A stretch of 64,000 bases of DNA. It comes from Runella sp. Its GTDB lineage: Bacteria; Bacteroidota; Bacteroidia; Cytophagales; Spirosomataceae. Each line of letters opens with the position of its first letter. The stretch's first letter is position 1. The notes under the pieces are model-generated. The model was not told the origin of the DNA. It saw only the letters and a program-made list of their open reading frames with translations, and searched no databases. Position numbers and translations under genes: made by a program. The stretch covers positions 24,861-88,860 of the forward strand of contig JALQYJ010000001.1 of NCBI GenBank assembly GCA_023254175.1, given 5' to 3'. Positions 3,001 through 57,149 of this stretch are shown here, in pieces.

Positions 3001-3286
3001 CAGCCAATGCAACATCAATGGTTGTACGGTTTCCAACGGCAATTTCTTGCGTTGTATAACCAATGTACGACACTACTAGGGTAGTGCCTGCTGACGGGGA
3101 ATTAAGGCTAAAACGACCTTCTCCGTCGGTAGTAACTCCAATGTTGGTTCCTTTAATAAGGACACTAACACCTGGGAGGGGACTACTGTCATTGGCATCA
3201 GTGACACGTCCTGTAAGACGTCCTTGTGCCCAAGTCGTGAGAACGACAATCCACAGTAATGCAGCTAAGTAGAGCTGTTTTTTCAT
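53..3286 (-). CDS. SusC/RagA family TonB-linked outer membrane protein
   Basis: Signal peptide, carboxypeptidase-like N-domain (GRVTDANDSSPLPGVSVLIKGTNIG), plug (SVTQMLQGRASGV, IRGFGSINNNSPLYVIDGVP), C-terminal beta-barrel ending VGLRFGF. Any SusD partner would lie outside the window. Confidence 0.95.
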   Translation of the reverse strand: MKKQLYLAALLWIVVLTTWAQGRLTGRVTDANDSSPLPGVSVLIKGTNIGVTTDGEGRFSLNSPSAGTTLVVSYIGYTTQEIAVGNRTTIDVALAVDVKSLSEVVVTGYASQRKKDITGAVTVVNAKELTATPAASVTQMLQGRASGVVVGNDNSPGGGTMVRIRGFGSINNNSPLYVIDGVPTQGTLNQLNPNDIESMQVLKDASAASIYGARAANGVVIITTKKGKTGEPNITFDFYSGTQRPGRMLPLLNTQELGQYLYESEIGAGKNPSAASPSAQYKFGPNGEQTIADYIYPNVYGTLPANYTYTNDIADPNLGRTAFNITKANKEGTDWQDVIFDPAPIANFQVGATGGMKSGKYAISANYFKQDGILRYTKYDRYSVRANTEFTKGKLTIGENFTFSYDERQGIANNNESNPIMFAIRVHPIIPVFDITGGPAELGGTNTSPYNGFAGSRGSNLGNAPNPLARLYREKDNITRGTHAFGNVFAELDILPGLKARTSLGLEYNQFNRSEYFHRDIEAAEARNANSLNVINQFDRSLTWFNTLNYSKTLGAHNFNVLVGTEAVKTYAFGFQASRSAFAFDDLDYRYLDAGSAAGLSNAGGGAILSALFSQFGKVNYSYKDFLLADFTLRRDGSSRFSAANRYAIFPAFSVGMRMTELGFMKEVKFINDLKVRAGWGKTGNQLIPNVYNAYTLYAADPSNNAYDINGTGSSIVGGFDLVQFGNPQGKWETNTSTNIGIDAVLLNNKMELVIDWYNRLTSNMLTQIAIPRTAGTGTIPFTNIGSVQNRGIDLGINFRDKKGDFRYQVGVNFGHYKNEVKKLNDDPNATVFGFTTRLPAISATKAGLPIASYYGYIVDGIIKDDAEAAAAPKFGTYTRAGVFKFRDINSDGVITAADRTIMGNPHPDFTYGINVNLGYKNWDLTMFGQGVQGNQIFNYVRYWTDFNVFQGNRSKDMLYNSWKKPGDDAKLPRLNSGDATSQQVSSYFLEDGSYLRLKNIQLTYTLPSTLLKKVGMSSAQVYIQGQNILTLTKYSGLDPDINLRTSGNDNQDIHMGIDEGAYPVAKSYLVGLRFGF

Positions 3287-11704: not shown

Positions 11705-11809
11705 GTAGTGGTTAGTCCATGGTCGTTGGTCGATAGTCCATAGTTTGTAGAGAATGCTACTGTACCCAAAACTATTGACCATCGACCAGGGATTCTCGAC
11801 CCAAAACTA
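11705..11809. repeat. Heptad-periodic inverted array A (convergent gene junction)
   Basis: Parses into 7-mers GTAGTGG TTAGTCC ATGGTCG TTGGTCG ATAGTCC ATAGTTT ... AAAACTA TTGACCA TCGACCA GGGATTC TCGACCC AAAACTA; arms 11728-11746 and 11769-11787 pair with 2 mismatches in 19. Confidence 0.8.
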
Positions 11810-14480: not shown

Positions 14481-14564
14481 GCCCAGATGGCGGAATCGGT
14501 AGACGCGTTGGTCTCAAACACCAATGAGGTTACACTCGTGCCGGTTCGACTCCGGCTCTGGGTA
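14481..14564 (+). tRNA. tRNA-Leu (CAA)
   Basis: Class II cloverleaf: GCCCAGA acceptor, anticodon loop CTCAAAC, variable arm, GGTTCGACTCC T-arm, TCTGGGT-A; no encoded CCA. Confidence 0.93.
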
Positions 14565-21521: not shown

Positions 21522-21623
21522 TTTAATTTAATTTATTAATAGCGCCAAAACGTTAGATAAAGAGTTTATTCACTGACTCGTTGTCTAGCGTTTTTATTAA
21601 ATAGTGCTTTGTCACTCATACGA

Positions 21624-22223
21624 ATGGAAATCAATTTTTCAAAATCTCCCGATGGTTTGGTTCCTGCCGTTGTCCAAGACGACGAAACGGGCAAGGTGCT
21701 CATGGTAGGATACATGAATGCAGAAGCACTCGCCAAAACCGAAGCCGAAAAAGTAGTTACTTTTTTTAGTCGTAGTAAGCAGCGTCTTTGGACAAAAGGA
21801 GAGACATCGGGGCATTTTTTAGAAGTTAAAACGATATTAGTGGATTGTGACCAAGATACTATTTTGGTCAAAGTACACCCGATTGGTCCAACGTGCCATA
21901 CGGGAGCTGATACGTGTTTTTTTGAGAAAAATGAGGGGAAAGCACCGTTTCTCAACTACCTTCAAAAACAAATCATTCGCGACCGTAAAAATAATCCTTC
22001 AGAAGCGTCATACACAAGTAAGCTTTTTAGCCGTGGAGTTAATAAAATAGCCCAGAAAGTAGGTGAAGAAGCCGTAGAGTTAGTGATTGAAGCCAAAGAC
22101 TCAAACGACGATTTGTTCAAAGGGGAAGCGGCTGATTTGTTGTTCCATTATTTAATTCTGTTAGAACAACGCGGCATGGATTTGGATGACATTGTTGATG
22201 TCCTGAAAACGCGTCATAAGTAG
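21624..22223 (+). CDS. hisIE: Bifunctional phosphoribosyl-AMP cyclohydrolase / phosphoribosyl-ATP pyrophosphatase
   Basis: HisI motifs (RLWTKGETSGHFLEVK, DCDQDTILVKVHPIGPTCHTG) followed by HisE (KIAQKVGEEAVELVIEAK). Confidence 0.96.
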   Translation: MEINFSKSPDGLVPAVVQDDETGKVLMVGYMNAEALAKTEAEKVVTFFSRSKQRLWTKGETSGHFLEVKTILVDCDQDTILVKVHPIGPTCHTGADTCFFEKNEGKAPFLNYLQKQIIRDRKNNPSEASYTSKLFSRGVNKIAQKVGEEAVELVIEAKDSNDDLFKGEAADLLFHYLILLEQRGMDLDDIVDVLKTRHK

Positions 22224-22227
22224 GTAT

Positions 22228-22290
22228 ATAGTCCACAGTCGATAACTCGATGGTTCACGATTTTGAACTAAGGACTATTAACTGTGGACT
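22228..22290. repeat. Heptad-periodic inverted array B (convergent gene junction)
   Basis: ATAGTCC ACAGTCG ATAACTC GATGGTT CACGATT TTGAACT AAGGACT ATTAACT GTGGACT; outer arms TAGTCCACAGT/ACTGTGGACTA perfect. Confidence 0.8.
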
Positions 22291-22298
22291 AATCAACT

Positions 22299-23168
22299 CT
22301 ACTCGTCAATCAAGCGCTTCGTGATGGGTTGGTAACTGTCGATGCGGCGGTCGCGGAGGTAAGGCCATGTGGTGCGATAGTACTCCGTTTTGTCCAAATC
22401 GAGTTCGATTACTTTCGTTTCTTCTTGATCGTGAGAAGCTAAATACATCAGACTTCCGAAGGGATTGGAAACAAATGAACCTCCCCAAAACTGCTGATCA
22501 GCTTCGCGTCCTACGCGATTGACTGACACGACATAGACGCCGTTGGCAACGGAGTGACTGCGCTGAATGGTCTGCCATGCGTTGTATTGTTCCTGATTAA
22601 TGGCAGAATCTTGTTCGTTGACGTCCCAGCCGATGGCTGTTGGGTAAAACAAAATTTCTGCTCCCATCAAGCTCGTGATACGAGCCGCTTCTGGATACCA
22701 TTGGTCCCAACAAATAAGAACACCCAGTTTTCCAAATTTGGTTTGAAATACTTTATAGCCCAAATCCCCCGGGGTAAAATAAAACTTCTCGTAGTAGCCT
22801 GGGTCGTCGGGTATGTGCATTTTGCGATATTTTCCCAAATAACTCCCGTCGGCATCCAAAACGGTGGTGGTGTTGTGGTATAGCCCTGGGGCGCGTTTTT
22901 CGAACAACGAAGCGATAATTACAATGCCTAATTCTTTGGCTAATTCACCCAAAACATCGGTCGTAGGGCCAGGGATGGCTTCACCGAGGCTAAAATTAGC
23001 ATGGTCTTCTACGTCGCAAAAATACAGGGATTTAAACAGCTCTTGAAGGCAGACAATTTGGGCACCTTGCGCAGCAGCCTCGCGGGTTTTGGCGATGGCT
23101 TTTGCTAAGTTATCGTTGACATCGGCAGTGCAGCTCATTTGCACCAAACCTACTTTTACGTTTCGCAT
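22299..23168 (-). CDS. Carbon-nitrogen hydrolase (N-carbamoylputrescine amidase-like)
   Basis: Nitrilase-fold motifs VCLQELFKSLYFC, GKYRKMHIPDDPGYYEKFYFTPGD, GVLICWDQWYPEAARI. Confidence 0.92.
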   Translation of the reverse strand: MRNVKVGLVQMSCTADVNDNLAKAIAKTREAAAQGAQIVCLQELFKSLYFCDVEDHANFSLGEAIPGPTTDVLGELAKELGIVIIASLFEKRAPGLYHNTTTVLDADGSYLGKYRKMHIPDDPGYYEKFYFTPGDLGYKVFQTKFGKLGVLICWDQWYPEAARITSLMGAEILFYPTAIGWDVNEQDSAINQEQYNAWQTIQRSHSVANGVYVVSVNRVGREADQQFWGGSFVSNPFGSLMYLASHDQEETKVIELDLDKTEYYRTTWPYLRDRRIDSYQPITKRLIDE

Positions 23169-54211: not shown

Positions 54212-54213
54212 GC

Positions 54214-54276
54214 GTGGTTACTGGTTATCTGTTAACTATTATTTGTCAACAGTACGAATAACGATTAACAGATAAC
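54214..54276. repeat. Heptad-periodic inverted array C (convergent gene junction)
   Basis: GTGGTTA CTGGTTA TCTGTTA ACTATTA TTTGTCA ACAGTAC GAATAAC GATTAAC AGATAAC; arms TGGTTATCTGTTAA/TTAACAGATAACCA perfect over 14 bp. Confidence 0.85.
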
Positions 54277-54284
54277 CAAATCAC

Positions 54285-57054: not shown

Positions 57055-57072
57055 GCGGCCCCTGAGATTTTC

Positions 57073-57149
57073 GTTATTTGTTAATTGTTATCTGTTATTA
57101 GTTGTTCACTGCTGATAACAGATAACAATTAACAGATAACGAATTACTG
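57073..57149. repeat. Heptad-periodic inverted array D (downstream of argG)
   Basis: GTTATTT GTTAATT GTTATCT GTTATTA GTTGTTC ACTGCTG ATAACAG ATAACAA TTAACAG ATAACGA ATTACTG; arms 57071-57098 and 57115-57142 pair over 28 nt with one wobble. Confidence 0.88.

Follow-up and report, generated by a model that had tools for sequence, protein, structure and literature searches.

Degenerate heptanucleotide arrays with inward-facing arms in the gene gaps of a Runella genome

The 75-bp gap between hisIE and a convergent amidase gene of Runella sp. is filled by a sequence, here termed array B, in which degenerate 7-bp units stand in tandem and form two arms that face inward; copies of this element are dispersed over the genome. 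Arrays of this kind are retained at gene boundaries as species diverge, with whole 7-bp units gained and lost and words changed, and they can be deleted or replaced. It is proposed, with a probability of about one-half, that they arise through gain and loss of 7 bases combined with fold-back copying, and that they are tolerated as spacer sequence. The window referred to below is the whole stretch of DNA that was analysed, 64,000 nucleotides in length.

Array B fills the hisIE–amidase gap

The upstream neighbour of array B scores over the cut-off of the HisIE model NCBIfam NF002747. The convergent gene has TIGR03381, N-carbamoylputrescine amidase, as its best hit, below that model's cut-off. 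The features of the gap are as follows:

21609..22223, + strand: hisIE, upstream neighbour of array B; stop codon TAG at 22221-22223
22224..22298, no strand assigned: array B, the whole hisIE–amidase gap; degenerate heptad array with inverted arms
22229..22244, + strand: 5′ arm of array B, TAGTCCACAGTCGATA; the first 11 nt pair perfectly
22276..22291, + strand: 3′ arm of array B, TATTAACTGTGGACTA
22299..23168, − strand: gene for an AguB-like carbon-nitrogen hydrolase (amidase), convergent neighbour of array B, ending at 22299

An earlier, sequence-only reading of this DNA had described nine consecutive 7-mers and perfect outer arms in the gap. Positions 22228-22290 do hold exactly nine 7-mers, and the arms pair perfectly over 11 bp (22229-22239 with 22281-22291), one base past the end given in that reading, and extend to 16 nt with 88% pairing. 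The 7-nt tandem unit that characterises bacterial heptanucleotide arrays is evident from the lag-7/14 score of the gap, which is 43 compared with 27.1 ± 4.1 in shuffles and was equalled by 1 of 2000 dinucleotide shuffles. A perfect 11-bp arm was equalled by 1 of 400 shuffles. The family word occurs only in the outer heptads, as GTY.... in the 5′ arm and as its complement in the 3′ arm; the middle heptads are degenerate. At gathering score, the only Rfam match in the window is a tRNA at 14481-14564, and array B is unmatched.

Three further arrays in the window

Together with array B, the window contains four heptad arrays:

11705..11806, no strand assigned: array A, words of the GTYVAYR family, as in array B; convergent gap
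54212..54284, no strand assigned: array C, GTTAWYN words; convergent gap
57055..57143, no strand assigned: array D, GTTAWYN words (GTTATCT/GTTAATT); between co-directional genes

Array D, with 32-nt arms that are 94% complementary around a 10-nt loop, is the strongest of these. Array B has the weakest period-7 score (43, compared with 51, 51 and 59 for the other three).

Arrays A and B had been regarded as members of one element with a common left edge, taken as a sign of shared ancestry or spread. They are indeed the same kind of element, both with GTYVAYR words, and dozens more copies exist in the genome. The edge fared less well: GTAGGTA is present in both arrays, but it aligns only with a 3-nt offset, the distance from GTAGGTA to GTCC being 14 nt in array A and 11 nt in array B. 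Over 58 array places in the genome, AAGTAGGT occurs three times near arrays (0.7 expected), each time within the window, at A, B and C (on the − strand at C). As the GTAGGTA edge is not enriched at other arrays genome-wide, it was dropped as a component of the element and as evidence of common ancestry. Array copies have vocabulary and polarity in common without alignable sequence, and A and B cannot be aligned base by base.

Genome-wide distribution

A pattern of GTY every 7 bases, four times over, matches the genome 89 times, compared with 19 matches for the reversed control. These 89 matches correspond to about 58 places; chance must account for some of them, chiefly the single matches that lie within genes. 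The copies are mainly intergenic: a naive gene call puts 41 of the 58 places in gaps (31 co-directional, 5 convergent and 5 divergent), 16 within ORFs and 1 at the edge of a contig. Their words belong to the GTYVAYR family (A and B), the GTTAWYN family (C and D) and GTTT families.

Arrays also occur inside operons and coding sequences, the genes and proteins concerned being presumably those named here, as judged from reading their sequences. The operon positions are rpoB–rpoC, nuoK–nuoL and rpsM–rpsK, and two arrays lie in frame in proteins, one in a loop of an FG-GAP/CRTAC-like protein and one in the linker of a 2-oxoacid dehydrogenase E2. Both in-frame arrays differ in length in sister species and are replaced by other filler in more distant species. 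At locus L050 (about 3015-3104, the FG-GAP/CRTAC-like loop) and locus L032 (about 1075-1136, the dihydrolipoyl acyltransferase-like linker), two word families are joined in the inward orientation.

Exact or near-exact repetition of a single word is not a property of these arrays: adjacent units are identical in 9 of 281 pairs. They are therefore filed as a variant of the heptanucleotide kind rather than as a member of one described family. An identical 14-mer is common to 18 locus pairs (10.5 expected with shuffled word order), and an identical 21-mer to one pair only.

Across the family and the phylum, the GTY heptad pattern is patchily abundant. The reversed control is itself high in some genomes, probably those with other words, and pattern counts do not measure heptad arrays in general. 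In genomes G054 and G319 matches to the reversed control (YTG every 7) greatly outnumber those to the forward pattern (392 and 530 in G319), which suggests heptad arrays with quite different words.

The same gaps in related species

The sequence-only reading would have been refuted by syntenic gaps without periodicity in close relatives together with a lack of other copies in the genome. Neither applies, as several congeners are periodic between hisIE and the amidase gene and dozens of further copies exist. The words there are GTCCACG/GTCAATA in G007, GTTCRCA/GTYGGCR in G009 and G002, and another word, about TTRGANN, in G003, G011 and G012. G006 and G008 carry a classic bidirectional terminator hairpin in the gap. 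G001, G004 and G010 have a plain hairpin, and the amidase gene was not found within their fetched flank.

Further gaps were compared at nine loci in up to ten congeners and at twenty loci in the three closest; the loci were picked by arrays in the window's own genome, and the relatives' sequences were unfiltered for words. In the closest species the array is mostly present too; in distant ones the gap has different words, a plain hairpin or nothing of the kind. Sister G004 lacks array C, and content has been swapped in other gaps as well. At locus L061, the gap holds AGGAGTG and GTATTRR words in distant species. Two of its orthologues, L170 (G003) and L171 (G009), have a near-exact CACTCCT tandem on the 3′ arm, where the window's genome has GTYVAYR words.

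Period 7 tops all lags in the autocorrelation of the congeners' gaps, at 0.486 in sisters and 0.381 in others (background median 0.25-0.28). Length varies between relatives in whole units: where both sisters have an array, the gap length differences are a multiple of 7 in 27 of 61 non-zero comparisons, against 8.7 expected, although the pairs are not independent. Examples are the rpoBC gap (102/109) and locus L016 (85/64). Among other pairs, which are likewise not independent, 3 of 28 differences are multiples of 7.

Other repeats were observed in some of these gaps. A different palindrome, about TTCCAAGTTTTTGAAACTTGGAA, lies inside the array A orthologue in L156 (G001) and L158 (G004), and the rpoB–rpoC gap of G011 and G012 is filled by related hairpins, e.g. 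GAAGGTTTTAAACCTTC; these palindromes look like a second repeat family settling in array gaps. A third repeat, with ACACATAG...CTATGTG arms, occurs at L235 and L217 (both G004) and L181 (G010), in gaps that are heptad-bearing in the window's genome.

Polarity and constancy of GT

The two arms of an array face inward in 32 of 34 pairs and outward in 2, a ratio that becomes 17:0 with at least three words per arm. Heptad hairpins at the compared gaps, drawn from several families that include words without GTY, have a G-rich 5′ arm in 44 cases and a C-rich one in 3. The corresponding ratio for non-heptad hairpins at these gaps is 20:6. In other genera, a count by eye among the matches listed gave eight opposite-strand neighbours within about 130 bp that faced inward and none that faced outward.

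When the units were phased by G000 and only differences among sisters were counted, 0 of 101 aligned sites at positions 1-2 (GT) proved variable, compared with 26 of 202 at positions 4-7. Because MAFFT could align different units by their GT, the test was redone on gapless arrays only; in this small test, GT varies at 1 of 74 sites compared with 14 of 148 at positions 4-7 (p = 0.023). The near-invariant GT points to a constraint on each unit.

RNA pairing and transcript termination

Array B folds well as RNA on both strands (z = −5.05 on the + strand and −4.82 on the − strand). Across the arrays, the arms match in register at 0.585, hardly above the 0.565 obtained when words are shuffled, and on the sense strand in co-directional gaps G-U mismatches number 23 and A-C mismatches 37. 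Compensatory selection at the RNA level was rejected, as G-U is not in excess over A-C and register-specific complementarity is marginal; RNA pairing in the arrays does not look selected. A search of 21900-22700 on either strand returned no terminator-like sites, and array B has no U-tract and so lacks the stem-plus-U-tract form of an intrinsic (Rho-independent) terminator. A special tie of the arrays to convergent gaps, as terminators, was also rejected, given 5 convergent places compared with 31 co-directional and 5 divergent.

These observations bear on the idea that the arrays work as RNA hairpins, standing in for an ordinary terminator by ending transcripts or protecting their 3′ ends. 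The strong fold of array B and the terminator hairpin in the corresponding gap of G006 and G008 speak for it. It is difficult to reconcile with the absence of a terminator-like site or U-tract at array B, the mismatch counts, the positions inside operons (rpoB–rpoC, rpsM–rpsK) and mostly in co-directional gaps, and the loss of array C in G004. Pairing that does not look selected, operon positions, losses and replacements together argue against an indispensable terminator, and this explanation is considered quite unlikely. Annotation of such gaps as regulatory RNAs or terminators should await supporting data.

Origin of the arrays

In the favoured model, replication slippage would add and remove units 7 bases at a time, and a nascent G/T-rich strand that folded back and was copied by template switching would give rise to the inverted second arm. 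Fold-back copying of a G/T-rich strand would leave both arms facing inward with the G-rich word 5′. Arrays would survive where extra sequence is tolerated, in gaps between genes and in protein linkers, and any function, such as forming a transcript 3′ end or an intercistronic hairpin, would be secondary and dispensable. Some additional factor would have to stop the GT of each unit from drifting, since pure slippage does not account for a constant GT. The 7-base steps are observed, and slippage and fold-back copying are inferred.

The multiples of 7 among sister length differences (27 of 61) and the dominance of period 7 in the congeners' gaps are consistent with slippage. Fold-back copying would presumably explain the inward polarity (32:2) and the G-rich 5′ arm (44:3). 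The near-perfect arms of array D (32 nt, 94%) are what would be expected after a recent fold-back, and most arrays pair weakly in register. A role as tolerated spacer would agree with the absence of array C from G004, the swapped gaps and the variable-length in-frame arrays in protein linkers. Recent slippage should leave identical neighbours, yet these are few (9 of 281). The near-invariance of GT also tells against the model, and non-heptad hairpins likewise tend to be G-rich on the 5′ side (20:6).

Slippage and fold-back copying account least well for the constraint on GT and for how few neighbours are identical, and these two findings leave room for a factor that reads GT every 7 nt. Under such a scheme, the arrays would be binding platforms on which a protein reads GT(Y) every 7 nt in single-stranded RNA or DNA or in duplex DNA, the letters outside GT being free to vary and the partner's preference differing between species. 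The scheme would accommodate a GT that is nearly invariant between species while the remainder varies, the strict polarity, and units drawn from a common vocabulary rather than duplicated from their neighbours; a repeat-binding protein was proposed by MacGregor for TAACTGA repeats (PMC4679880). Set against this, no candidate protein was found, the corresponding gaps of congeners hold words that lack GTY, sisters differ by the loss or replacement of arrays, and the gapless GT test is small. The accessible part of the source on the Bacteroides RRM protein RbpB, which was sought for a heptad-like motif, holds nothing that points to heptads. Binding platforms are viewed as an unlikely explanation. 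The same doubt attaches to the broader conjecture that heptad arrays of Bacteroidota are sites for a factor reading GT once per 7 nt in a fixed direction, where other letters would drift by species and unit size, polarity and GT would be held by selection.

A mobile origin, in which the arrays would be REP-type miniature palindromes whose movement depends on a transposase, either a REP-associated tyrosine transposase (RAYT) or a different one, appears improbable. Dispersed palindromic copies, some of them in frame in genes, would be expected of such elements, as would gaps with and without arrays between clades, and GTAG adjoins the hairpin in A and B as it does in GTAG-tagged REPs (PMC3733652). 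That tag is not conserved at one end of the other arrays, however, the copies share no alignable sequence, and none of the compared gaps showed a clean insertion flanked by a target duplication. Mobilisation by RAYT was rejected because array abundance does not follow Y1_Tnp counts: G046, G084, G102 and G119, all 98-99% complete or more, have no Y1_Tnp match, yet they contain 248-468 pattern matches. An accidental palindrome coinciding with an accidental period in one short gap would sit best with array B, the weakest of the window's four. The shuffles, the genome excess of 89 over 19 and the periodic arrays in the hisIE–amidase gap of several congeners already refute a chance origin, and its likelihood is regarded as negligible.

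Heptanucleotide arrays recur in unrelated bacteria. In this genus many orthologous arrays can be compared at a divergence that is still resolvable, and three rules are quantified: changes in steps of 7 nt, inward polarity with the G-rich arm on the 5′ side, and a near-invariant GT. A neutral origin by slippage and fold-back copying is now directly testable against a sequence-reading factor.

Comparison with known repeat systems

We read the arrays as a degenerate, palindromic, multi-vocabulary variant of known heptanucleotide arrays, of which an earlier description may exist beyond the open-licence literature searched. Rickettsia palindromic elements are palindromic repeats that lie in frame inside proteins and have a family consensus, whereas the coding arrays described here vary in word and unit number between species. 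The arrays resemble GTAG- and CGTC-tagged REPs in being short, dispersed, extragenic hairpins that sometimes lie inside genes, but a REP carries a fixed consensus of 20-40 bp and a tag at its end (PMC3733652); the arrays have neither, nor do they follow Y1_Tnp copy number.

Seven is the commonest longer unit class among the STRR repeats of Calothrix, which include heptanucleotides (cited in PMC4692102), and the long simple sequence repeats of Mrazek et al. 2007 (cited in PMC4679880), and slippage of about 7 nt was the proposed cause. The descriptions consulted are of near-exact tandems and do not include inverted arms or word turnover, both of which are found here.

TAACTGA direct repeats occur in Beggiatoaceae, some Cyanobacteria and five Bacteroidetes, where they are mixed with other heptamers and show indels in 7-nt steps; in BOGUAY they lie mostly just upstream of starts (PMC4679880). 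A TAACTGA tandem is the opposite strand of a GTTATCA tandem, a word of the GTTAWYN family of this genome, and its orientation in BOGUAY is that predicted by the inward rule. TAACTGA repeats are for the most part direct, exact copies of a single word close to start codons, whereas the present arrays are degenerate, often have an inverted second arm and occur at both gene ends.

The GGGAATC repeats of Xanthomonas and the GGGGA(C/T)T repeats of Nostoc are heptanucleotide, partly degenerate and mostly intergenic, with few in genes; they lie mostly between the same genes in relatives, with extensive length and sequence variation, and about 70 convergent (inward) pairs of GGGAATC form inverted repeats (PMC4692102). 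The present arrays are alike in their degenerate 7-nt units, mostly intergenic placement, inward pairs and kept gaps with variation in length and sequence. They differ in having no G-tract words, so that quadruplexes are not expected, and in that several word families coexist, two-arm palindromes are common and words change within the genus.
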